Assembly (NCBI GenBank): GCA_013373425.1
Contig: JABXHW010000004.1
Span: 62,001 to 126,000, forward strand
Direction: 5' to 3'
Length of the DNA: 64,000 bases
From: Flavobacteriia bacterium
Lineage (GTDB): Bacteria > Bacteroidota > Bacteroidia > Flavobacteriales > Schleiferiaceae
The notes under the pieces were generated by a model, which had not been told where the DNA came from, made no database searches, and saw only the letters and a list, made by a program, of their open reading frames with translations. Positions 4,129 to 19,848 of this stretch are shown here, piece after piece; the stretch's first letter is position 1, and the number at the start of each line of letters is the position of its first letter. The position numbers and the translations under genes are program-made.

Positions 4129-5520
4129 TCAGTTAAAGTGAATCGAGTCTCGTAGCAACCTGAACCCATCGCCGTTCAACCGGTAGACGCGTTCACGTTT
4201 GTCATGTGGGTCTTTCTCACGGTAAATCAACTCCGGAATATTCAAGTTTTCTTCAGCGCGTTTGTTCAACTCCTTGATGAGATTGTTTCTCCATTTACGC
4301 TGATTGTCCCAAGACTTTCGTTGCCATCCCATTATTTCAGTAATGGGCGCAGATTTGAGACCTTCTCCTCTCATCTCTGATCTCAACAATGCCTTGAGTA
4401 AGGTTACTTCTTGTCGTTCTAAGGTCTGGAAAAATAACTCCTCCGCTTCTACTGTGGACCCCTTCAAGAAAGGCTGTCGCAGTTTTCGATAAAGCAGCCA
4501 CAATAGCCACATCAGACCAATACCTCCAAGACCAATACTGATGTATATCCATGTTGGCCATCCCGTTTTGTATACTTCTTCCGGATTCCTGCGCGCATTG
4601 AGAATCTTGTCATAGTCATATTTCAAGCTTATGCTTCTACCGAGATTACTGCTTGTCGGCACTTGAAAATTGAGATAAAACTGCCTGCCTACAAGCGCGC
4701 CTCTCCCATTTGAAAATGAGTTATTGGAGGAGAATCTGAGGTCGATTACTGAGGGCTCCAGATAATCTAGGCGATTATTCCGGAGATCGAGGAGTTGGTT
4801 CTGTCCATTCCCCAAGATTATTCCAATGGGTAGGTTGAGCTTTCGCTTCGACTTTTCAATTGCTTCTTCCGTTGACTTGTTGAGCCGACCCAAGTTCTCC
4901 CAGACGAAATTTTGCAAATTCAAACGCCAGACTGTTGGGTCACGCTCCACTTCCGACCCATGGATGACTGCGGAATACGCCACATACAAGAACCGTCCAT
5001 CTTCCGAAATTTGGTAGAAGTCATTTGTCACATTCAGTGGTCCATTACTCGTTGGAATCACATGCCACTCCTTTGAGCTATTGCTGAAGTACGACAATAC
5101 CCCATGCGTATGCCAGAATCCATATCCTCCGAGCGAGAACAGCGTGTCGTTCCGATACCACTTTATCGAATTAAAATTATATCCTCGGTGAAAGGTGACA
5201 TCCACACGTGAGAATTCACTAGTAGATTTATTGAAGGTATAAACCTGTTGGGTGCCCTGGGCGACAAAGTGAAGTGGACTAGAGAAAGGAATGGGCATGA
5301 GGGCGTCTACTCCTTCAAAATCTTTCACATCGATATTCTCGAAGGTCAATGTGTTTTCAACTTCCCAAAACTCACCATTCCAAATGCGCAGACTTGAATC
5401 TGCTTCAATCGATCTTAAGGTTTCAGCCTCCTCGTCTAACCAATAAACGGTCGGCCAATCCTGCGCGAGCGCGCTTCTCGACATTAGGAGGCCTAAGAAT
5501 ATGAAATACAGCGGTTTCAC
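4129..5520 (-). CDS. Membrane-anchored sensor-like protein with C-terminal winged-helix-like domain
   Basis: 463 aa from a GTG at 5520, chosen because it gives a clean signal peptide (KPLYFIFLGLLMSRSALAQ); a TTG at 5559 would add 13 residues. The exported ~290 residues are beta-rich with repeated W/Y/F-G turns and could be a propeller (inference). One membrane helix follows (WIYISIGLGGIGLMWLLWLLY, near 315-335). The cytosolic tail contains LLKALLRSEM..., then WDNQRKWRNNLIKELN and DKRERVYRL, a pattern I know from Bacteroidota C-terminal winged-helix-like domains. It lies inside the paa locus, convergent to paaC and downstream of paaD, so it may regulate paa genes. Function unproven. Confidence 0.7.
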   Translation of the reverse strand: MKPLYFIFLGLLMSRSALAQDWPTVYWLDEEAETLRSIEADSSLRIWNGEFWEVENTLTFENIDVKDFEGVDALMPIPFSSPLHFVAQGTQQVYTFNKSTSEFSRVDVTFHRGYNFNSIKWYRNDTLFSLGGYGFWHTHGVLSYFSNSSKEWHVIPTSNGPLNVTNDFYQISEDGRFLYVAYSAVIHGSEVERDPTVWRLNLQNFVWENLGRLNKSTEEAIEKSKRKLNLPIGIILGNGQNQLLDLRNNRLDYLEPSVIDLRFSSNNSFSNGRGALVGRQFYLNFQVPTSSNLGRSISLKYDYDKILNARRNPEEVYKTGWPTWIYISIGLGGIGLMWLLWLLYRKLRQPFLKGSTVEAEELFFQTLERQEVTLLKALLRSEMRGEGLKSAPITEIMGWQRKSWDNQRKWRNNLIKELNKRAEENLNIPELIYREKDPHDKRERVYRLNGDGFRLLRDSIHFN

Positions 5521-5609
5521 GATGTGTGAAAATAGTGGAAAACCCGCTTTGAATCGCAAAAGAGGGAAACTTTCTTATTTATCTCAAATGGAATAGTGAT
5601 ATTGGAAGC

Positions 5610-6165: not shown

Positions 6166-6169
6166 ATGA

Positions 6170-6177
6170 CAAAAGTA
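6170..6177 (-). promoter_or_regulatory. paaD -7 promoter box, 4 nt from the start codon
   Basis: Minus-strand TACTTTTG, then TCAT, then ATG. With normal spacing the transcript would begin at or next to the A of the ATG. No strong -33 TTG is seen. Confidence 0.5.
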
Positions 6178-6270
6178 CCATTTAGTGCGGTAGATTGTTC
6201 ACGGTGAACGCTTGATATCCTCTTCGAGATTCCTCTGAACTTCCGTAACTTCGGCGCAAATCCACTTTCC

Positions 6271-7044
6271 ATGCATATCGTTGAAGAAATGAAGGGCGGG
6301 GTATGCACCCTGCGCATGAATCGCGCCGACAAGTACAACAGCTTTGTGAGAGAAATGGCGCTCGATCTACAGACTAAACTCGACAATGCCGCAGCAGACG
6401 ATGACGTAAGGTGTATCGTTCTAATCGGCGAGGGTAAAGCATTTTGCGCAGGTCAGGATCTCGCTGAAGCCACCGATCCAAATGGTCCGGAGCTAAGTAG
6501 AATTGTAAGCGAGCATTACAACCCTATCATTCAACGCATTCGCCGAATCGAGAAACCTATCATCGCAGCCGTAAATGGCGTTGCAGCTGGAGCAGGAGCG
6601 AACATCGCTCTCGCCTGCGACATAGTACTTGCAACGGAATCTGCGGCATTCATCCAGGCGTTTTCAAAAATTGGTTTGATTCCGGACAGTGGTGGAACTT
6701 TCTTCCTGCCTCGACTTATCGGATGGCAAAGAGCTTCGGCATTGATGATGACCGGGGAGAAAGTCATGGCCAAAGACGCTGAAGCCATGGGTATGATTTA
6801 CAAAGCAATCGCTGATCAGGAATTCAGTTCTGAAGTTGAAAAGCTATCCTTGACCTTGGCGAATATGCCAACGAAAGGATTGGGACTCACTAAAAGAGCA
6901 TTGAACCAAAGCTTCACGAACAACCTCAATCAGCAACTAGATCTCGAAGACGAATTGCAGTCGCAAGCGGGTAAAACAGAAGATTACGAGGAAGGCACAC
7001 GTGCTTTCTTGGAGAAAAGAAAACCTGAATTCAAAGGGAAATAA
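6271..7044 (+). CDS. paaG: 1,2-epoxyphenylacetyl-CoA isomerase PaaG
   Basis: 257 aa, crotonase fold. PaaG turns ring-1,2-epoxyphenylacetyl-CoA into oxepin-CoA and also moves double bonds later in the path. Visible: oxyanion loop FCAGQDL (58-64), AAGAGANIALACD (105-117) with no hydratase glutamate, and the PaaG-type aspartate D139 in LIPDSGGTFFLPR. The ending ...EGTRAFLEKRKPEFKGK is typical. It heads a plus-strand run down to paaY; paaH begins 10 bp after its stop. Confidence 0.93.
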   Translation: MHIVEEMKGGVCTLRMNRADKYNSFVREMALDLQTKLDNAAADDDVRCIVLIGEGKAFCAGQDLAEATDPNGPELSRIVSEHYNPIIQRIRRIEKPIIAAVNGVAAGAGANIALACDIVLATESAAFIQAFSKIGLIPDSGGTFFLPRLIGWQRASALMMTGEKVMAKDAEAMGMIYKAIADQEFSSEVEKLSLTLANMPTKGLGLTKRALNQSFTNNLNQQLDLEDELQSQAGKTEDYEEGTRAFLEKRKPEFKGK

Positions 7045-7054
7045 GATTTCATCT

Positions 7055-8218
7055 ATGATGGATATTGGAGTAGTTGGAGCTGGCGCCATGGGCAACGGCA
7101 TTGCACAAGTTGCAGCACAGAGCGGGCACACGGTTTACGTTTACGACACAAGAGCAGAGGCACTTGAAGGTGCTAGAAAAAAACTTGTATCCATTCTCAA
7201 TCGCCTTGTAGAAAAAGGACGAATGGAACAGGGTGAGGCGGATGCAGTGGCAGGCCGAGTTCACTACGTAGACCATCTTCAAGGACTTAAGTCTGTAGGT
7301 CTTGTTATTGAGGCCATCATCGAAAACCTCGACGCAAAGAAGAGCGTTTTTGAAAATCTCGAAAAGGTGGTTTCTGAGGACGCTATCCTCGCCAGTAACA
7401 CCTCATCGTTGAGCATTGCTTCCATTTCTTCGGCCGTTCAAAAACCGGAGCGAGTAATTGGCATTCACTTTTTCAACCCAGCGCCTCTTATGCCATTGGT
7501 GGAAATCGTTCCATCCTTAATGACGGATAGGAAGGTGACCCAAACCTCTGTTGAGCTTATTGATTCCTGGAAGAAGGTGACCGTGGTTGCTAAGGATACC
7601 CCTGGCTTCATTGTGAATCGTGTCGCACGTCCATTCTACAGCGAATCCATTAAAATGTACGAAGAAGGCGTTGCCGATCCCGCCACTATCGACCACGCGC
7701 TGAAATCAGTTGGCGGCTTTCGTATGGGGCCATTTGAATTAACCGATTTGATTGGACATGACGTTAACTACGTGGTGACCGAGACCGTTTGGGAAGCATT
7801 CTTCTACGACCCTCGTTTCAAACCGTCTATCTCCCAGAAGAGGTTAATGGAAGGTAAAATGCTCGGACGAAAGACGGGCCGAGGCTGGTTCGATTATCGC
7901 GAAGGTGCAGAAAAGCCTGAGCCCAATAACAATACAGCCCTACACAGAGAGATAGCGGACCGAGTTATTGCCATGCTCATCAACGAGGCCGCAGATGCAG
8001 TACTCATGGGAATCGCATCCGCAAAAGATATCGATTTAGCGATGACCAAAGGAGTGAACTACCCCAAGGGGTTGTTGGCTTGGGCAGATGATATCGGAAT
8101 TGACACCGTCCTCGGTCGATTAGAATCCCTTTTTGAGGAATATGGAGATGACCGCTACCGTCCATGTGTGCTATTAAAACGCATGGCAAAAGCTGGTGAG
8201 AATTTCTTTAAAGACTAA
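7055..8218 (+). CDS. paaH: 3-hydroxyacyl-CoA dehydrogenase PaaH
   Basis: 387 aa from the ATG at 7055 (another ATG follows at once at 7058). NAD-dependent oxidation of 3-hydroxyadipyl-CoA to 3-oxoadipyl-CoA. The Rossmann motif GAGAMG lies at 8-13, followed by ASNTSSLSI and the catalytic His region VIGIHFFNPAPLMPLVEIV. The C-terminal 3HCDH dimer domain has KDTPGFIVNR and GRKTGRGWFDY. It is shorter than enterobacterial PaaH (about 475 aa) but complete for a one-plus-one domain enzyme. An upstream in-frame ATG at 7001 lies inside paaG and was rejected. Confidence 0.93.
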   Translation: MMDIGVVGAGAMGNGIAQVAAQSGHTVYVYDTRAEALEGARKKLVSILNRLVEKGRMEQGEADAVAGRVHYVDHLQGLKSVGLVIEAIIENLDAKKSVFENLEKVVSEDAILASNTSSLSIASISSAVQKPERVIGIHFFNPAPLMPLVEIVPSLMTDRKVTQTSVELIDSWKKVTVVAKDTPGFIVNRVARPFYSESIKMYEEGVADPATIDHALKSVGGFRMGPFELTDLIGHDVNYVVTETVWEAFFYDPRFKPSISQKRLMEGKMLGRKTGRGWFDYREGAEKPEPNNNTALHREIADRVIAMLINEAADAVLMGIASAKDIDLAMTKGVNYPKGLLAWADDIGIDTVLGRLESLFEEYGDDRYRPCVLLKRMAKAGENFFKD

Positions 8219-8221
8219 AGC

Positions 8222-8725
8222 ATGCAGTACGACGCACTTGAAAGTGCCATCCGAGAAATGAACTTGATTGGCGACGATCAATGGCAAGGTATGTTGAGCC
8301 AAGCCATGGATGAACAGCCGCATTTGATGGCCTTCTTGATCAATATTTCAGACGATTTTTCAGAAGATGTGCATGAGCACTTATTGAGAATTACCGTCAT
8401 CCTTGCCATCGCTTTTCAAAAGGCGGGAATTCAAATCAACCTCATCACCCCAGCCAGCCTAGACAAGGTGATTGAAGAGAAGGTCGAGGCCTATGAAGAT
8501 CTCGCAGAAGAAGATGAGCTCGACGAAGACGGCATGGGGAAAGTAGCCAACAGCCCGCACGTATTCGACAGAGTTCGCAAGTGGGTAAAAGAAGAGCTCG
8601 GAGCCAAAATGCCTATCCTAGATGAAACTCAGGCGAACATCAATTTGATGTTAGATGTAATCATTTCCGTCCTGGAAGAACACGCTGTAGATCCCGCTGC
8701 TGAAAAATCAGAAACCAATGACTGA
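8222..8725 (+). CDS. Uncharacterised acidic protein in the paa operon
   Basis: 167 aa, not recognised. It is strongly acidic (a run like EAYEDLAEEDELDEDGMG near 90-108), predicted mostly helical, and has no signal peptide or membrane segment. The first half contains a hydrophobic helix (LRITVILAIAFQKAGI). It starts 3 bp after paaH stops and overlaps paaI by 8 bp, so it is co-translated with true paa enzymes. That position suggests a role in phenylacetate degradation or its control, but no motif points to a reaction. Confidence 0.75.
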   Translation: MQYDALESAIREMNLIGDDQWQGMLSQAMDEQPHLMAFLINISDDFSEDVHEHLLRITVILAIAFQKAGIQINLITPASLDKVIEEKVEAYEDLAEEDELDEDGMGKVANSPHVFDRVRKWVKEELGAKMPILDETQANINLMLDVIISVLEEHAVDPAAEKSETND

Positions 8726-9152
8726 TCGTTCAAAGGAAATTGTGAGTCATATGATGACGAATGACGAGTTCAGTCAATGGCTCGGCATACAGATCGTTGA
8801 AGTTAAGCCGGGAAGTGCTATATTAGAAATGCAAGTGCGTGAAGAGATGACCAATGGGTTCAAGATAGCGCATGGCGGAATCACCTACAGTTTAGCCGAC
8901 AGCGCGTTGGCCTTTGCATCTAATGGGTACGGGATTCAAGCCGTGAGCATTGAAACGTCAATTTCCCACACTCGCCCAGTGAAATCTGGAGATACTCTAA
9001 AGGCAGTGGCGGTCGAAAAAAACCGCAGTAGGAAGGTCGGGATTTACGAAGTGACCATAGAGAATCAAGACAGCAAGAAAGTAGCCCTATTTAAAGGGAC
9101 GGTCTTTTATAAGGATTCAGAATGGCCACAAAATCTGGCTCAAATCAACTAA
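8718..9152 (+). CDS. paaI: Hotdog-fold acyl-CoA thioesterase PaaI
   Basis: 144 aa. PaaI hydrolyses dead-end ring-hydroxylated and other acyl-CoA esters so CoA is not trapped. The family signature is clear: NGFKIAHGGITYSLADSALA with HGG at 52-54 and D61, then AVSIETSISHTRPVKSGDTL. Its start overlaps the previous gene by 8 bp and its end overlaps the sensor kinase gene by 31 bp, indicating translational coupling. Confidence 0.94.
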   Translation: MTDRSKEIVSHMMTNDEFSQWLGIQIVEVKPGSAILEMQVREEMTNGFKIAHGGITYSLADSALAFASNGYGIQAVSIETSISHTRPVKSGDTLKAVAVEKNRSRKVGIYEVTIENQDSKKVALFKGTVFYKDSEWPQNLAQIN

Positions 9153-10057
9153 TTCCCAATTGGCTTCGAAAGCTACTGGTTCCCTGGAAAATTACGCTTA
9201 TTAGCATATTGGCCAGTGAGATTCTCTATGCTTTCTTTTACATCACTACTCTCTATCAATACCCTACTGGTTGGTACGGGTTTGTCATTTCTTTCGTCAT
9301 TCCGGTCCTTGTTGCGCTTCCAACCTCCTCCTTCGTTATTCGGCTATTGAACTATGCAGACAACGCAAGAGAGCGCCTGGAAGTAGAGACTGAATTGCGC
9401 TCCCGGCTTCTAGCCATTCTTAGCCATGATGTTCGAAGTCCACTCGCCGCCTTGAACTCTATGCTTGAGCTGTTGGGCGACGACCTCACTGAGGATGAGG
9501 TGTACAACTTACTTGGCGAGCTAAAATCACAGCTTCATTTCACAAAGGATATTCTCGATCGAATCACGCTTTGGGCTCGAATGCGCATGCAAGGAACCCA
9601 CGAGTTGACTACCGTTGAACTCGATGAAGTACTCCATGAAGTTAAAGTCTATACTGAACGATTCGCAAGACCCTATGACGTGAATGTTAAGGCGGATTGG
9701 CCTTCTGGCCTTCACGTTCAATCCGACAAAGATGTGTTGGTGATTGCCTTGACGAATTTGGCGAACAACGCCGTGAAATACTCGCCTGCAAATGGTACTG
9801 TCACCTTGAGTGCCGAGACGATAGGGAACAAAGTGATTCTAAAAGTGTCAGATGAAGGGAGAGGGCTTCCGACAGAAGACTTGAATGAGTTGTTGTCTCC
9901 TAAAATTTCGGACGACTATGCCATTAACACCGACTCTATGGGGGTCGGCCTTTTCTTAGCCCGTGAGTTCGTGGAGCTTACTGGCGGAAAGTTAACTGCG
10001 AGGAACTTACCCGGAAAAGGTGCTCAATTCTCCATAACTTTGGGAGCCCAAATCTGA
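9122..10057 (+). CDS. Orphan sensor histidine kinase inside the paa operon
   Basis: 311 aa. Two membrane helices (about 23-45 and 50-76) with almost no outside loop, then a HisKA/HATPase_c module: phospho-acceptor H102 in LSHDVRSPL, N-box NLANNAVKYS (213-222), G1 DEGRGLP and G2 GVGLFLAREF. The short sensor part suggests sensing in the membrane or through a partner. The ATG at 9122 lies 31 bp inside paaI; no later Met precedes the first membrane helix. No response regulator gene is near. Its place between paaI and the thiolase suggests a link to phenylacetate or acyl-CoA levels (inference). Confidence 0.88.
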   Translation: MATKSGSNQLIPNWLRKLLVPWKITLISILASEILYAFFYITTLYQYPTGWYGFVISFVIPVLVALPTSSFVIRLLNYADNARERLEVETELRSRLLAILSHDVRSPLAALNSMLELLGDDLTEDEVYNLLGELKSQLHFTKDILDRITLWARMRMQGTHELTTVELDEVLHEVKVYTERFARPYDVNVKADWPSGLHVQSDKDVLVIALTNLANNAVKYSPANGTVTLSAETIGNKVILKVSDEGRGLPTEDLNELLSPKISDDYAINTDSMGVGLFLAREFVELTGGKLTARNLPGKGAQFSITLGAQI

Positions 10058-10070
10058 AAACAGCTTTCCC

Positions 10071-11282
10071 ATGAAAGACGCTTATATCGTCGACGGCATT
10101 CGCACTCCAATTGGAAAATTTGGTGGTTCTCTGAGTACAATTCGCACAGATGATTTAGGTGCTATCGTACTTCGTGAACTCCTAGTTCGAAACCCAGACC
10201 TAGATCCTGCTAAAGTCGATGATGTCATCCTGGGATGCGCAAACCAAGCTGGGGAAGACAATCGAAATGTAGCTCGGATGTCTTTGCTTTTGGCAGATAT
10301 GCCATGGAGTGTCCCTGGCGAAACTGTCAATCGTCTATGTGCCTCTGGAATGAGCGCCGCCATACATGCATCTCGCGCTATCGCTGCTGGCGACGGAGAC
10401 CTGTTCATGGCGGGAGGTGTTGAAAACATGACGAGAGGGCCCTATGTGATGAGTAAGGCATCGCGTCCTTTTGGAACAGATAGCAAGCTATACGATTCAA
10501 GCTTCGGTTGGAGATTTGTCAATCCGAAGATGAAGAAGATGTACGGTACAGAAGCGATGGGTGAAACTGCCGAGAACTTGGCCGAGATGTTCAACATATC
10601 TCGTGAAGACCAAGATAAATTCGCATATCACTCTCAACATAAAGCTGCAGCAGCTCAACGCTCTGGACGCCTTATGCAGGAAATTGTTCCTGTACTCATC
10701 CCACAACGGAAAGCGGATCCTATCTCGTTTACAGACGATGAGTTCATCAAGAGTACTACAACAGAGGAAGTACTTGCAACACTGCGTCCTGCCTTTAGGG
10801 AAGGTGGAACGGTAACCGCAGGCAACGCATCTGGACTCAACGATGGCGCTGCCGCCTTATTGATTGCGAGCGAAAACGGCTTGAAGGACAATGGCCTAAA
10901 CCCAATGGCTCGCATTGTATCAAGTGCAGTTGCTGGGGTAGAGCCAAGAATCATGGGAATCGGTCCGATTCACGCCTCTAAGAAAGCCCTTGCAAAAGCA
11001 AGTTTAACCATGGACGACATGGACATCATCGAAATCAATGAGGCTTTCGCGGCACAAGTTCTCGCTTGTACGCGTGAGCTTGGTGTTGCTGATAATGATC
11101 CTCGTATCAATCCGAATGGCGGAGCCATTGCCATTGGCCACCCGTTGGGAGTAACGGGAGCACGTATTCTTCATTCTGCAGCTATTGAGCTCATCCAAAA
11201 GAAGAAGAAATATGCCTTGGTAACGATGTGTATTGGAGTCGGACAAGGTTATGCCACAATCATCGAAAACGCACAACTCTAA
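10071..11282 (+). CDS. paaJ: 3-oxoadipyl-CoA thiolase (PaaJ/PcaF type)
   Basis: 403 aa. Degradative thiolase expected to split 3-oxoadipyl-CoA into acetyl-CoA and succinyl-CoA, and the matching C8 intermediate earlier in the path. Catalytic residues: C90 in NRLCASGM, H357 in GGAIAIGHPLG, and C387 in CIGVGQG. The length and the sequence GGVENMTRGPYVMSK fit the PaaJ/PcaF group. It follows the kinase gene by 13 bp and belongs to the same run. Confidence 0.92.
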   Translation: MKDAYIVDGIRTPIGKFGGSLSTIRTDDLGAIVLRELLVRNPDLDPAKVDDVILGCANQAGEDNRNVARMSLLLADMPWSVPGETVNRLCASGMSAAIHASRAIAAGDGDLFMAGGVENMTRGPYVMSKASRPFGTDSKLYDSSFGWRFVNPKMKKMYGTEAMGETAENLAEMFNISREDQDKFAYHSQHKAAAAQRSGRLMQEIVPVLIPQRKADPISFTDDEFIKSTTTEEVLATLRPAFREGGTVTAGNASGLNDGAAALLIASENGLKDNGLNPMARIVSSAVAGVEPRIMGIGPIHASKKALAKASLTMDDMDIIEINEAFAAQVLACTRELGVADNDPRINPNGGAIAIGHPLGVTGARILHSAAIELIQKKKKYALVTMCIGVGQGYATIIENAQL

Positions 11283-11285
11283 CCC

Positions 11286-11885
11286 ATGTTTACCACTTCC
11301 GAGAAAGTAACAGCTTACATCGACAAAAAAGGAGAAGGGTGGAAAGGTGAAATCCTCCATCAACTCCGAGATGTGATGAAAAACTGTGAAGTGGAGGAAG
11401 GCGTAAAATGGGGTGTTCCAACTTACATGAACAATGGAAATGTTGCCTCTATGGCTGCGTTTAAAAATCATGTAGCCCTTTGGTTTCACCATGGAGTCTT
11501 CTTGTCGGATCACGAAAATGTGCTGAGCACTAGCGACGGCACGAGTGAATACATGCGACAGTGGAGGTTTCAAGAAGGAGACAAGGTGGATACGGCGCTC
11601 GTAAAAGCGTATATGGATGAAGCCGTTGAGAACAGCAAAGCAGGTAAGAAGGGAAAAGCCAAGCCTCAAACTGAGGAAGAGCCAATCCAACCGGCCTTTG
11701 CCGAAGCATTAAAGAACGCTCCAAAGGCGAAACAGACCTTCGATAATTTCAGTTTAGCAAAGAAGAACGAGTACATCAAGCACATCGCCGCGGCGAAACG
11801 CCAGGAAACTCAATTGAAGAGAATTGAGAAATCGATTGGCTACCTCGAACAAGGCTTAGATCTCAACCACAAATACAGGAAGTAA
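11286..11885 (+). CDS. DUF1801 / YdeI-OmpD-associated domain protein
   Basis: 199 aa. N-terminal DUF1801 part (EILHQLRDVMKNCEVEEGVKW, then GVPTY and FKNHVALWFHHG) followed by a Lys-rich linker and the YdeI-type C-terminus with FDNFSLAKKNEYIKHIAAAK (near 150-170). The family has no settled function. It starts 3 bp after the thiolase stop and overlaps paaY by one base (TAATG), so it is carried in the paa operon, though probably not as an enzyme of the path. Confidence 0.85.
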   Translation: MFTTSEKVTAYIDKKGEGWKGEILHQLRDVMKNCEVEEGVKWGVPTYMNNGNVASMAAFKNHVALWFHHGVFLSDHENVLSTSDGTSEYMRQWRFQEGDKVDTALVKAYMDEAVENSKAGKKGKAKPQTEEEPIQPAFAEALKNAPKAKQTFDNFSLAKKNEYIKHIAAAKRQETQLKRIEKSIGYLEQGLDLNHKYRK

Positions 11886-12472
11886 TGGCAATTTTCAAGT
11901 TCAAGAACTTCATTCCTGTCATTCACGAATCCGCATACATCCATCCACAAGCTACAGTAATTGGGGATGTCATCATCGGAAAAGATGTTTACATCGGACC
12001 CGGCTGCGTCCTACGTGGCGACTGGGGTCGTATCGTGATAAAAGACGGTTGTAATGTTCAGGAGAACTGTACCGTTCACATGTTTCCTGGAGAAACCGTT
12101 ACTCTTCATGAAGGAGCGCATATTGGTCATGGTGCGATTGTCCATGGAGCAAATGTGGGCAAGAATTGCCTGGTTGGTATGAATGCCGTTTTGATGGACG
12201 AAGTGGAAATTGGCGACGAGTGCATTATTGGTGCACTTTGCTTTGTTCCGCAAAAAATGGAGATTCCCTCCCGAAGCATTGTGGTCGGAAACCCCGCAAA
12301 AATTGTCAAGCAAGCTTCCGATGAAATGATCGCTTGGAAGACAGAAGGGACAAAGCTCTATCAGCAATTACCTGGAGAAATGCGCGACCATTCAGAGGAA
12401 GTTGAACCGCTTCGCAAAATTGAAAACGATCGCCCATCCCACCCAAAAACATATATGCCTCGTAAGAAATGA
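11885..12472 (+). CDS. paaY: Hexapeptide-repeat thioesterase PaaY (gamma carbonic anhydrase family)
   Basis: 195 aa. Left-handed beta-helix protein. PaaY removes toxic acyl-CoA by-products, a backup to PaaI. Hexapeptide turns run from about residue 20 to 140 (for example VIGDVIIGKDVYIGPGCVLR). The metal-binding histidines of the gamma-CA family appear in CTVHMFPG, HIGHGAIVHGA. The longer C-terminal tail (HPKTYMPRKK) fits PaaY rather than YrdA. It shares one base with the previous stop and ends the paa run. Confidence 0.9.
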   Translation: MAIFKFKNFIPVIHESAYIHPQATVIGDVIIGKDVYIGPGCVLRGDWGRIVIKDGCNVQENCTVHMFPGETVTLHEGAHIGHGAIVHGANVGKNCLVGMNAVLMDEVEIGDECIIGALCFVPQKMEIPSRSIVVGNPAKIVKQASDEMIAWKTEGTKLYQQLPGEMRDHSEEVEPLRKIENDRPSHPKTYMPRKK

Positions 12473-14319: not shown

Positions 14320-17300
14320 ATGCACAAATTCAACGCGAATTGGCGATGGCTTGGTTTGACATTCTTATGGCTTATGTCATTCGGATTAGCAGCCCAAACC
14401 TACATCCCGCAGCTCCAATCTGGAGTGGGATCGCCCGGAGGGCTCAACACATTGAGCAACAACTCCACCACCGGATGGACGGAAATCATTCCACCTTCCA
14501 TCTCGACCAATCAATGGTCGGCACCCGTTACCATACCTTTTGCCTTCGATTTTGATGGCACACCGGTGACCGAACTTCGCGCGAGCGGAAACGGTTTGGT
14601 AACCTTCCTTTCAAACCCAGGCGCCACGCCTCCAAACCCAACTAGCGGAATCACCCCCCTCCTAACAGATCCAAACTTGCCTGATAGTACTATTGCGGCG
14701 TTTTGGACAGATTTCACAACTGCTACGACTGGTTCTAACGACCGCGTGTACACGCAAACGTTCGGATCAGCTCCAAACCGTCAGTTTTGGGTGAAATGGC
14801 ACTCTTATGAGTGGGGAGCTTCAGGAGCTACTGGCTTCGTTTACGTTTGTGTTGTGCTCGAAGAAAGCACAAACAATATCTACGTGATCGAGCAGTACAG
14901 TGACTCTCCGGAGCCAGACACCGATTCATGTGTTGTAGGTATCCGTGTAGATGGTGCCAACACTTATGAAGTGACCAACCCTGTGTCCATTTCAGGCATC
15001 AGCTCTAGCAGCTCAATTGACGATGTATATGGATTCTATAATGGCGTTGCACCTGCTGCAAATCCATTCTTGGTTTCATTGACTGCTACCACTGCAGAAG
15101 TTTCTGCAAATGTTCCTGATCCTTCTACTGGAGTAATTGTTCAATACGGCCTTGACGGGTTCACATTGGGCTCTGGCACTATTCTCACCGGAGCGAACGA
15201 TACTGTGGCGATCTCAGGTTTGACACCGGTTACGGAATACGACGCTTACATTGCGAACGTCAATGGAAATGACACTTCTTCCTATGTTGGGCCGGTATCA
15301 TTCCAGACCAACTGTTTGGCCGTTACAACCTTCCCATTCATTGAGAACTTTGATTCTACCAATGTATGGTCAGGTTCTACTGTTGATCCATGTTGGACTC
15401 AGGTAAGTACGGAAGATGAAGACTGGATTGCAGATGCCAATGGTACGTCTAGCTCTGGCACTGGTCCGGCAGATGATCTTACAGGAGGACAGTATCTCTA
15501 CCTCGAAGGTACAGGTGCAAGTCAGGGTGATTCGGCAATTTTAATTTCACCGACATTCGACGTGACCTCACTTACCGCTCCATACCTCACCTACTTCATT
15601 CATATGTATGGTGGTGATATGGGCGATTTGTTGGTTGAAACAACAACAGATGGCGGCGCTACTTGGACTTCTGCTTACACGATTAGTGGTCAGGTTCAAA
15701 CTTCTGATGCAGCACCATGGACGCAAATTGATGTGGCATTACCTTCTTCAAGCTCGCTCCAAATCCGCTTCATCGCGGTGACGGGTTCAGATTTTGAAAC
15801 GGATATGGCAATTGATTCTGTTCGCGTTGGTGAAATGCCAAGCTGTACTGCACCTGCAATTGTAACTATGGATGAAGTGTTGAGCTCTACAGAGCTTACC
15901 GTGAACTGGACAAACACCACAAACAACGTTCGCGTTGAGTGGGGTCTTACTGGATTCCAGCAGGGAACAGGTACGCCAAACACCGCCTTGATTACTGCGG
16001 GTACTGGCAGTTACACGATTACTGGACTCTTCCGCAACACGGAGTACGATGTATACGTATACAGCGATTGTGGAGTTTCTCCAGTTGGTCAGTCGATGGC
16101 CATGCTAACAGGCAGAACGCTCCCGGCTGTTCCTTCTTACTACGAGCCTTTCACTTCGTTTGTACCTGACGATCGTTGGGAAGAAGCCTCTGGTGACCTT
16201 GCAACTCCAACCGTATTCACATCTACCAGCGCAAGCTGGGCGAGTGACGATTGGTTGAATGTAACTTCATCTCCAGACAATGCGGCGCGTATTGCAATGA
16301 CAACAACTGCAGATGACTGGTTCTTCTCTCCTTTGATTGACATGGGAACCGGTGGCCAGTACGAGTTGATCTTCAATGCCGCTATCACAACCACTTCAGG
16401 CGGAACCGCGTCGAACATGGAAGCAGACGACAGCCTCTTCGTGGTAATCAATAACGATACAAACCAGGTGTGGAACGCATCAGATGTGGAGCTCATCATT
16501 GAGTCGAGCAACGAGCCTTCTAACGCAGGTAATGTATATCGTGTAGACCTATCAGCTTATACAGGTCTTGTTCGTGTAGGGTTCTTTATTAAGTCGACTG
16601 TTTCTAACACAACCGACTATAACTTCTACATCGACAACTTCCGTATCCGTCCAATTCCACAGTGTGCAGAACCAACCGGTTTGGCCGTTTCAAACATTTC
16701 TGAGTCTGCAGCTAGCATCACTTGGAACCCTGTTGGAGCAGCAACCAATTATGTGGTTTATGTGGCATTGAAAGACTCTTCAACTTCAAACCCAACAACT
16801 ATTGTTGATACTGTAGCTACAGATTCGACCTATATCACAGGTTTGATGTCGAATACGGCATATGACGTTTACGTAACCACACTTTGTGGAAATTTGAATT
16901 CGTTGACCACTGGCCCTACTCCCTTCATCACCGATTGTTCAGTATTCACTGCGCCAACGGTATTCAACTTTGAAGGTTTGGACGAAGGCGCTGCTCCAAA
17001 TGGCAAATTTGCCAACTGTATTGAGTCAGCTCCTGTGAGTTCTTATATCTGGGAGATTGACGAGTCAACAGGCTCAAACACGCACTCATCAGGAACAGGC
17101 CCGAATTTCGACAACACCTTGTACCCAGCTTCTGGTGGTTCATTCATCTATACAGAAGCAACCAGCGGAAGCAATGGTGATACGGCTCAAATTCTTCTTC
17201 CAAGAATTGACGTAACAACGCTCACTACTCCTGCACTGAAGTTCTTCTACCACATGTATGGTGATGACTTCGGAACGCTTCAAGTAGATGTGAGCGCGGA

Positions 17301-19848
17301 CGGCTCAAACTGGACCAACGCGATTTGGTCGATTTCTGGAAAGCAACACGATTCTGCTGATGCAGCGTGGGACAGTGTTGAAATCAACTTGTCTTCATTC
17401 AACATCGATACTGTTCATGTTCGCTTCACAGCGATTAGAGGAAGCAGTTTCGAGTGTGACATCTCATTGGATGACATCACAGTAGATGAAGCCACATCCG
17501 CTTGTTCTATTCCTTTGGCCGTGAACTTGAGTAACCTAACCTCATCTAGTGTGGATATCGCTTGGGTAGGTTCGGCTTCGTCCTACACGGCGGCTATTTC
17601 GCTAACAGGTGATCCAACGGATTCTGCGAATACGACTTTCGTGACTGGTCTAACTGGTAATTCAACAACACTGAACCTACCATTGGCTTCGTGCATGACC
17701 ATTTATATCCTTGCAGATTGTGGCGCGGCTACATCAACATGGGTGAATGCTGGTGAAGTTTGTACTCCATGTCCGTCTGTATTCCCAACTCCTTACTTCA
17801 CCAACTTGGAAGGACTTTCAGCGGGTGAAGATGGACCTGGAATCATCGACAACTGTTGGAATCTCGACCAAGGTACTTCTGACCCAACTTGGGAGACAGA
17901 GGATGCTTCTGGAACAGACGAAAACTCTACGAGTACCGGTCCTCACTTTGACAACACCAACTTCCCAAGTTCAGGTGGTATCTACATGTACATGGAGGTT
18001 TCAAGTGCATCTTTAGGTGATACGGCGATCTTCGAGTCACCACAGTTCTACGTGGGCAACTTGAATAACCGTCCGGCACTTGAATTCTACTACCACATGT
18101 ATGGTGCGGACATGGGTAACCTTTACATCCAGGCAAAGGACGAAACCTCAGCTTGGATGACTGTTGACTCAATTATTGGTCAGCAACAAACCTCAGGCAC
18201 TGAAGCGTGGAGATTGCGTACAGTCGTTCTCGACAACTTGCAAGACACCATTCAAGTTCGCTTTATCGGCGTTGCAGGAAGCGGTTTCACAGGTGATATG
18301 TCTTTGGATGACATCGCCATTGTTGAAGCTCCATCTTGTCCAGACCCAACGAACTTGGCGTCTAGCAACATCACCACAACTTCGGTTGACCTTTCTTGGA
18401 ACACGTACAACCCAAGCGCAACGATCTTGGTAGAGTATGGTTCAACAGGATTTGCTCAAGGTTCAGGAACTGTGACTACGGTTACGGGTAACCCAGCAAC
18501 GCTTTCAGGATTGTCACAAGCAACATGTTACGACATTTATTTGCGTGAGGTGTGTGCAGCGGGTGATTCGTCTACATGGATTGGACCTATAAGCATTTGT
18601 ACGGATTACACATGTGATCCTAACACAGTACCAGGTGCTGGTCTGGTGGACACATTTATCTGTGCCCCAGGCACAATGAGCTTGAGTGGTGCAAGCAATG
18701 AGATCTATTGGGAGGATGCCTCAGGGCAGATTTACCACACTGGTTCTCCATACATGACAGACACTATTTCTGGTGATACTGCATTGTATGCTCGCGGTTA
18801 CAATCCATTGTATAGCTTCACCTTCGGTCCGAGCACAGACATCTCTGGAGCAGGATTCGGAAACTTCAGCAACGGTGAGATGATCACTGTAAACAGAGAA
18901 GTTCGTATCGATACCGTAACGTTCAAGTCGAACGGTGCGAAGAGCGGTACCATCCAGTTCTCTGTGCCTCTTGCAGGATTTGATAACAACTATGGTGATG
19001 GAGATTTGGATACCCTAATCGACATTGTACAAACTGTTGACTTCAGCTTGCCAGGTGCAGGTGATCACAGAGTTCCTGTAGGAGCCGTATTGAAGCCAGG
19101 CACATACTTCGTGAACATCAGCTTCGACACTACAGGTGTAGGAGAGCTCTTCCGTGCTACGGGCGGTGCAAACTATCCGTACTCATTCAGCAACGTCATG
19201 TCTATTGATAGCGCTGTTGGTGTAAGCAACTTTGCATCAACTCGAGTGTACTACTTCTTTGATTGGACTGTGTCTCCTGTATGTTCAGGAAACCTCGACA
19301 CGACAAACATCGAGTTTGCACCAGAGGCTGTGGCTTCATTTACCGAGAACAGCGCATCGGGTTCTGCTACAGCAACTGATTACAGCGTGTTCTTCGATGC
19401 AACCGCAAGTGAGAACGGTGTTTCCTACGACTGGGACTTCGGTGACGGAGCAACGGGTAGTGGAGACACTCTAACACACGTATACACCAGCAATGGTACG
19501 TATACAGTACAGCTTGTAGTAACAGGCGTTTGTGGCGACACAGACACAGTGACTACTACTGTTGATATTCAAGGCATCTCCGTTGAAGAGGTGGCGTTTG
19601 ATGGCAGCGTGAACGTATTCCCGAATCCAACTTCAGGAGTATTCAATGTTCAGATTGCTACGGCCACAGCGGGTGAAGCAGAGTTGCAGCTGCTCTCCCT
19701 AAGTGGCCAAGTGCTCCACATCGAAAAACTCGAAAGAGGAAATGAGTGGAATAAGCAAATCGACATCAGCGACTTGCCACAAGGCACGTACATGCTCACC
19801 ATCCGCACCGCGGACGGTACCCATGTAGAACGCGTCGTACGCTACTAA
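14320..19848 (+). CDS. Very large multidomain T9SS cargo protein (MAM-like, FN3, PKD)
   Basis: 1842 aa. Signal peptide ends near LAAQ (about 26). Three MAM-like lectin/protease-type modules share the phrase F-Y/I-H-M-Y-G-x-D-x-G followed by a LDDI/DSV ending (about residues 345-505, 885-1065 and 1155-1345). FN3-like units (LTVNWTNTTNN, SVDLSWNTYNP) separate them, and a different jelly-roll unit occurs near 605-780. Near 1500-1660 is the module shared with the preceding protein, then a PKD domain (YDWDFGDGATGSG) and a T9SS C-terminal domain (VFPNPTSGVFNVQI...DLPQGTYMLTIR). Likely a surface adhesin. The ATG matches a clean signal peptide. Confidence 0.9.
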   Translation: MHKFNANWRWLGLTFLWLMSFGLAAQTYIPQLQSGVGSPGGLNTLSNNSTTGWTEIIPPSISTNQWSAPVTIPFAFDFDGTPVTELRASGNGLVTFLSNPGATPPNPTSGITPLLTDPNLPDSTIAAFWTDFTTATTGSNDRVYTQTFGSAPNRQFWVKWHSYEWGASGATGFVYVCVVLEESTNNIYVIEQYSDSPEPDTDSCVVGIRVDGANTYEVTNPVSISGISSSSSIDDVYGFYNGVAPAANPFLVSLTATTAEVSANVPDPSTGVIVQYGLDGFTLGSGTILTGANDTVAISGLTPVTEYDAYIANVNGNDTSSYVGPVSFQTNCLAVTTFPFIENFDSTNVWSGSTVDPCWTQVSTEDEDWIADANGTSSSGTGPADDLTGGQYLYLEGTGASQGDSAILISPTFDVTSLTAPYLTYFIHMYGGDMGDLLVETTTDGGATWTSAYTISGQVQTSDAAPWTQIDVALPSSSSLQIRFIAVTGSDFETDMAIDSVRVGEMPSCTAPAIVTMDEVLSSTELTVNWTNTTNNVRVEWGLTGFQQGTGTPNTALITAGTGSYTITGLFRNTEYDVYVYSDCGVSPVGQSMAMLTGRTLPAVPSYYEPFTSFVPDDRWEEASGDLATPTVFTSTSASWASDDWLNVTSSPDNAARIAMTTTADDWFFSPLIDMGTGGQYELIFNAAITTTSGGTASNMEADDSLFVVINNDTNQVWNASDVELIIESSNEPSNAGNVYRVDLSAYTGLVRVGFFIKSTVSNTTDYNFYIDNFRIRPIPQCAEPTGLAVSNISESAASITWNPVGAATNYVVYVALKDSSTSNPTTIVDTVATDSTYITGLMSNTAYDVYVTTLCGNLNSLTTGPTPFITDCSVFTAPTVFNFEGLDEGAAPNGKFANCIESAPVSSYIWEIDESTGSNTHSSGTGPNFDNTLYPASGGSFIYTEATSGSNGDTAQILLPRIDVTTLTTPALKFFYHMYGDDFGTLQVDVSADGSNWTNAIWSISGKQHDSADAAWDSVEINLSSFNIDTVHVRFTAIRGSSFECDISLDDITVDEATSACSIPLAVNLSNLTSSSVDIAWVGSASSYTAAISLTGDPTDSANTTFVTGLTGNSTTLNLPLASCMTIYILADCGAATSTWVNAGEVCTPCPSVFPTPYFTNLEGLSAGEDGPGIIDNCWNLDQGTSDPTWETEDASGTDENSTSTGPHFDNTNFPSSGGIYMYMEVSSASLGDTAIFESPQFYVGNLNNRPALEFYYHMYGADMGNLYIQAKDETSAWMTVDSIIGQQQTSGTEAWRLRTVVLDNLQDTIQVRFIGVAGSGFTGDMSLDDIAIVEAPSCPDPTNLASSNITTTSVDLSWNTYNPSATILVEYGSTGFAQGSGTVTTVTGNPATLSGLSQATCYDIYLREVCAAGDSSTWIGPISICTDYTCDPNTVPGAGLVDTFICAPGTMSLSGASNEIYWEDASGQIYHTGSPYMTDTISGDTALYARGYNPLYSFTFGPSTDISGAGFGNFSNGEMITVNREVRIDTVTFKSNGAKSGTIQFSVPLAGFDNNYGDGDLDTLIDIVQTVDFSLPGAGDHRVPVGAVLKPGTYFVNISFDTTGVGELFRATGGANYPYSFSNVMSIDSAVGVSNFASTRVYYFFDWTVSPVCSGNLDTTNIEFAPEAVASFTENSASGSATATDYSVFFDATASENGVSYDWDFGDGATGSGDTLTHVYTSNGTYTVQLVVTGVCGDTDTVTTTVDIQGISVEEVAFDGSVNVFPNPTSGVFNVQIATATAGEAELQLLSLSGQVLHIEKLERGNEWNKQIDISDLPQGTYMLTIRTADGTHVERVVRY

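Follow-up and report, generated by a model that had tools for sequence, protein, structure and literature searches.

The window, that is, the whole stretch of 64,000 nucleotides analysed here, carries a phenylacetate (paa) operon whose genes are tightly packed from paaG (6271) to the end of a paaY-like gene (12472), and which encloses, between the thioesterase gene paaI and the thiolase gene paaJ, a gene for an orphan histidine kinase (Table 1). For PaaG and PaaH the equivalog models give strong matches that stay under the curated cut-offs, and orf167 sits between paaH and paaI in most loci that were read. The order paaG-paaH-orf167-paaI-HK-paaJ-ydeI-paaY (HK, kinase gene) bears out the original prediction that the kinase is embedded in the phenylacetate operon, and the positions given there were exact: the gene starts 31 bp inside paaI and ends 13 bp before paaJ. 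The order is identical in all three genomes of the genus, i.e. the window genome and two congeners. One congener additionally carries the gene of a 229-aa secreted-type protein between paaD and paaG (L034:13350-14039, minus strand).

Table 1. Features of the paa locus in the window, with the regulator found at the same junction in sister genera (positions with an L prefix refer to loci in other genomes; residue numbers refer to the protein)
Feature	Position	Strand	Remarks
orf476, candidate membrane-tethered regulator	4129-5559	-	signal peptide, Kelch-like propeller, TM 336-360, winged-helix-like tail (predicted)
paaD/paaG divergent promoter region	6166-6270	+	TAnnTTCG before paaG
TACTTTTG before paaD	6170-6177	-	
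paaG-like isomerase	6271-7044	+	first gene of operon
paaH-like 3-hydroxyacyl-CoA dehydrogenase	7061-8218	+	start 7061 from alignment; first start in ORF list 7001
orf167, family-specific protein between paaH and paaI	8222-8725	+	no Pfam/NCBIfam match at threshold
paaI thioesterase	8718-9152	+	TIGR02286 above cut-off
Overlap of kinase start and paaI end, 31 bp	9122-9152	+	kinase ATG out of frame in paaI Glu-Trp codons (GAATGG)
Orphan histidine kinase, 311 aa	9122-10057	+	predicted TM1 21-44, loop 45-51, helix 52-103; HisKA with His102, HATPase_c
TAACTTTG, putative -7-type promoter box for paaJ, in kinase 3' end	10035-10042	+	identical in 3/3 species of the genus
paaJ/pcaF-type 3-oxoadipyl-CoA thiolase	10071-11282	+	TIGR02430 above cut-off
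DUF1801/OmdA (ydeI-like) gene	11286-11885	+	downstream of paaJ
paaY-like hexapeptide gene	11885-12472	+	downstream of paaJ
NrtR/AraR-like Nudix regulator in paaI-paaJ slot, two sister genera	L046:756-1457; L052:685-1413	-; +	

The product of the inserted gene is a HisKA/HATPase_c sensor histidine kinase. Pfam recognizes HATPase_c (4.2e-20) and HisKA (1.5e-7), both above cut-off, together with a weak second HATPase model and nothing else. The catalytic motifs H, N, G1 and G2 are complete, and H102, N212, N216, D244/G246/G248 and G274/G276 are invariant among the three kinases of the genus and two distant small kinases. Judged from these motifs, the kinase is apparently functional; decay of the gene was ruled out, the reading frame being open in three species with all motifs present. 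NCBIfam offers CreC, PhoR and others as top matches, all far below their cut-offs, and we therefore claim no name for the kinase. In the AlphaFold2 model (mean pLDDT 73), a membrane helix and a loop of only about seven residues are followed by a single helix that runs from the second membrane segment continuously into the phospho-acceptor domain, and the remainder of the model resembles solved kinase cores. Hydropathy accords with two helices for the window protein; in the congeners only the first helix exceeds the threshold of 1.6. The two membrane helices with almost no loop that had been foreseen for the window protein are thus recovered by both approaches. The predicted topology fits that of intramembrane-sensing kinases, which parts of PMC4388633 define by two TM helices, a linker of fewer than 25 residues and no extracytoplasmic sensor domain, and which, in the same source, receive their signal from an additional component. 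In these features the protein is like kinases of the SaeS, BceS and LiaS type, as far as that source describes them. Unlike these, it has no linked regulator, transporter or accessory protein, it belongs to a catabolic operon of a Bacteroidota bacterium, and its TM2 is modelled as one helix with the phospho-acceptor domain. What is unusual is where its gene lies; the protein itself adds a new member to an established class.

Across the three genomes the kinase gene has diverged faster than any other gene of the operon: its product is 46% and 35% identical to those of the congeners, against 51-84% for the other operon genes. Its start is kept nevertheless: in all three species the ATG lies within GAATGG with an A at position -3, and the overlaps with paaI measure 31, 34 and 19 bp. 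An A at this position is a positive determinant of initiation in Flavobacterium, according to part of PMC6847099. GAATGG occurs in the tail of 22 of the 70 paaI genes of the family, and such a kinase start is therefore readily available; the recurrence of start, overlap and order in three of three genomes is more than chance. The kinase is probably translationally coupled to paaI, as the arrangement of the two reading frames suggests, so the part of the original prediction that had the kinase made in step with the thioesterase stands as probable. The extension of this idea to the thiolase is weakened, since paaJ need not follow the kinase if the sequence in the 3' end of the kinase gene acts as a promoter.

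This sequence, TAACTTTG, is located 28 nt before the paaJ ATG and fits the sigma-A -7 box of Bacteroidota, given as TAHHTTTG in the sections of PMC6847099 and PMC9723704 available to us. The codons at the box, ATA-ACT-TTG, are the same in all three species. In ten cluster genes, ATA is kept at none of 109 other invariant isoleucine positions, the joint expected rate of the same Ile, Thr and Leu codons in three species is 0.0038, and the nine consecutive identical codons that the window genome and its nearest congener share at the box have a simulated P of 0.0016, all of these figures resting on three species and a resampling that treats them simply. Moreover, no other TAnnTTTG on the sense strands of the ten cluster genes is conserved across the three species. 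At kinase-less loci of the family (59 were examined, of which 51 have a placeable paaJ start), TAnnTTTG within 70 bp upstream of paaJ was found in 0 of 51. The box seems to be a promoter for paaJ, acquired together with the kinase or later, and because this conserved element lies in the last codons of the kinase gene, synthesis of the thiolase is probably not just tied to that of the kinase. The box might instead be a chance by-product of a conserved Ile-Thr-Leu, leaving paaJ without a promoter of its own. In favour of chance, no exact match to the -33 TTTG element 18-22 nt upstream is found, the motif as such is frequent (26 matches in the window against 34 expected), and support comes from three species only. 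An exact -33 match is lacking in the whole window, and therefore before paaA and paaE too. The rare isoleucine codon, the nine-codon run, the uniqueness of the box within the cluster and its absence from the kinase-less loci all speak against chance, which we consider unlikely. The -7 boxes that precede paaE, paaA and paaD also recur in the three species, and that of paaG is conserved as TAnnTTCG. A search of the paaE/paaA and paaD/paaG regions for a shared operator brought up these conserved boxes, and we claim no operator there.

The distribution of the kinase was followed from paaI. In the family, 88 genomes were searched, and the 70 with a strong paaI match were used, one locus per genome, with paaJ in view in 62; weaker matches (E of about 1e-8 or weaker) resemble other thioesterases and were left out. 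The kinase occupies the paaI-paaJ slot in 3/3 loci of the genus and in 0/67 other loci of the family, in most of which paaI and paaJ are almost adjacent. Outside the family, 67 loci were read from 199 genomes with a match, and no kinase was found in the slot at any of the 67. In 36 of them paaJ lies downstream of paaI on the same strand, with a gap of at least 100 bp in 14 of the 36 (10 of these 14 gaps were read). On this sampling the insertion is genus-specific rather than general to the order, and the paaI-kinase-paaJ arrangement that the original prediction hoped to see across Flavobacteriales was not found there. A single locus of the 67 has a kinase nearby, a 454-aa protein of different architecture encoded after paaJ; it lies in another family (L245:2423-6050), where a TetR-like gene, paaI, paaJ and the kinase gene follow one another as an independent paa-kinase neighbourhood.

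The same slot is filled by other genes in sister genera. At eight loci of two other genera (7/7 and 1/1), it holds an NrtR/AraR-type regulator that combines a Nudix domain with a DNA-binding winged helix (NrtR_WHD) and is unrelated to kinases, although it takes the position of the kinase; the homologue in the window genome adjoins a thioredoxin-reductase-like gene (trxB; L097:5987-6697), away from the paa genes. In yet another genus, the one locus read has an 85-aa ORF there that resembles 23S-IVP proteins just below the Pfam cut-off, and other unrelated genes were seen in the slot elsewhere by eye. From these gene orders, the paaI-paaJ junction is a permissive insertion point that has been filled repeatedly. 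Since it also takes genes without an evident regulatory role, position in the slot alone is weak evidence of a function in phenylacetate metabolism. It is therefore conceivable that a junction tolerant of insertions simply took up a kinase that uses the operon for expression and regulates something unrelated. The unrelated genes at the junction and the wide gaps outside the family are in keeping with this, as are the related small kinases found elsewhere, which are orphans with unrelated genes around them. Against it stand the retention of the kinase with its overlap in three of three species and the codon-level constraint on the box in its 3' end, and we regard such a passenger role as possible though doubtful.

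When the TM region of the kinase was compared with 395 genomes of the class, scoring at most 12 candidates per genome, one strong new match appeared among these candidates, most others covering just the end of the acceptor helix. This match (L145:1462-2403, plus strand) is an orphan kinase and, among the matches listed, the closest relative of the membrane region outside the family; it adjoins what appears by eye to be a gene for an AMP-binding (MenE-like) enzyme. A plasmid search yielded generic kinase-domain matches and nothing more specific, and a scan of genome contigs with the kinase gave three loci, all kinase-domain matches of 24-28% identity, that were not used.

As had been predicted, no partner regulator lies nearby. 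The sole receiver in the 64-kb window belongs to a hybrid kinase about 38 kb from the kinase, and none is present in the 19-kb stretches of the two congeners; the kinase is not one half of a paired two-component system with an adjacent response regulator. An orphan kinase without an assigned partner is a common unsolved situation. Across the genome, a counterpart within 5 kb is missing for 12 of the 38 HATPase loci and for 12 of the 40 receiver loci. These counts come from a draft of 76 contigs, where genuine pairs broken by a contig end may escape the 5-kb criterion, and the 38 HATPase loci may include proteins other than kinases. Given these proportions, and given that orphan two-component genes are often numerous in marine bacteria (PMC6365647, in part), the orphan status is ordinary in this genome and not remarkable alone. 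By eye, with no database basis, the unlinked receivers include NtrC-like, LytTR-like, NarL-like, PorX-like and single-domain forms.

Phenylacetate operons are usually described as being under soluble acyl-CoA-sensing repressors. The genome (96% complete) has no match to PaaX (TIGR02277), for which E. coli served as a positive control, and no paa-linked TetR gene of the PaaR type: its two TetR genes lie away from the paa genes, beside apparent transporter and efflux genes. The earlier observation that neither repressor is visible thus holds genome-wide for PaaX and, for TetR genes, as regards linkage to paa. PaaK, the phenylacetate-CoA ligase (TIGR02155), is also without a match in this 76-contig draft, in which an assembly gap is possible; the paa cluster being present, phenylacetyl-CoA may come from another enzyme, or the PaaK gene may fall in a gap.

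A second candidate for a dedicated regulator, overlooked by the original prediction, is orf476, which is encoded in the cluster. Its tail, some 110 residues long, hardly varies within the genus and shows the winged-helix order of elements in the structure model, and three genomes of another genus encode a homologue between paaD and paaG. It might thus be the true dedicated paa regulator, a membrane-anchored one-component protein, with the kinase in an accessory role. Against this, orf476 has no Pfam or NCBIfam match at threshold, the fold-search matches listed are all propellers, and the gene occurs in just 8 of 148 genomes of the order. Because of the first two points its role as a DNA-binding regulator stays a proposal, and we rate the displacement of the kinase by orf476 a real contender that falls short of even odds.

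The original prediction had proposed a dedicated feedback loop, in which the kinase and an unlinked response regulator would directly control the paa promoters. The lack of PaaX and of a paa-linked TetR, the availability of 12 unlinked receiver loci and the occupation of the slot by a regulator of another kind, the NrtR-like Nudix protein, in two sister genera are favourable to this proposal. There is also a precedent in Acinetobacter baumannii, where the GacS/GacA two-component system strongly affects paa genes (PMC9239106, in part). However, no partner was singled out among the receivers of the genome, the kinase is limited to one genus, and orf476 is a more widely paa-linked candidate. We therefore hold the feedback loop as a tentative possibility, and the original interpretation as a whole is partly supported.

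The best explanation, to which we give a probability of roughly 0.55, is that an apparently working kinase gene of the intramembrane type entered the paaI-paaJ junction in the ancestor of the genus and was then kept. The gene would be read from the paaG promoter, with its translation coupled to that of paaI, and the amount of kinase would therefore follow the induction of the upper operon, while paaJ-ydeI-paaY would also be transcribed from a second promoter, the box inside the kinase 3' end. The kinase would exchange phosphate with one of the unlinked response regulators of the genome, reporting the activity of the paa operon together with a signal from the membrane or from an accessory protein. 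That the partner regulator acts back on the paa promoters is a tentative part of this scheme, and it is no less likely that the output reaches a wider regulon. In a bolder form, the insert would be a regulatory cassette complete in itself, in which the last codons of a membrane kinase gene hold a promoter. It would split the paa operon into two transcription units and, with orf476, place control of phenylacetyl-CoA breakdown in this genus at the membrane under two embedded sensors rather than under a soluble phenylacetyl-CoA repressor. The kinase amount would then be tied to the upper pathway and the thiolase end freed; we think this version improbable.

Two-component control has precedents in GacS/GacA and StyS/StyR, neither of which has such a layout, as far as the available parts of the sources describe them. 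GacS/GacA is global, virulence-associated and placed upstream of paa with PaaX (PMC9239106), whereas the kinase described here has its gene within the paa operon itself. StyS/StyR of Pseudomonas controls the styrene route to phenylacetyl-CoA (PMC2442086, in part) and is similar in providing a kinase for a route leading to this compound. A search of the open PMC literature brought up no report of a kinase inside a paa operon or of paa regulation in Bacteroidota. The locus shows a possible, modest new wiring of a familiar pathway, its interest being raised somewhat by the built-in promoter box and orf476. If this wiring is true, it would be an example of catabolic operons gaining regulators at a repeatedly used junction, and the locus offers a small, convenient system in which to search for an orphan kinase's partner. 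Downstream of the operon, the window also encodes an 1842-aa repeat-rich secreted-type protein (14320-19848, plus strand), whose tail resembles a type IX sorting domain by eye.
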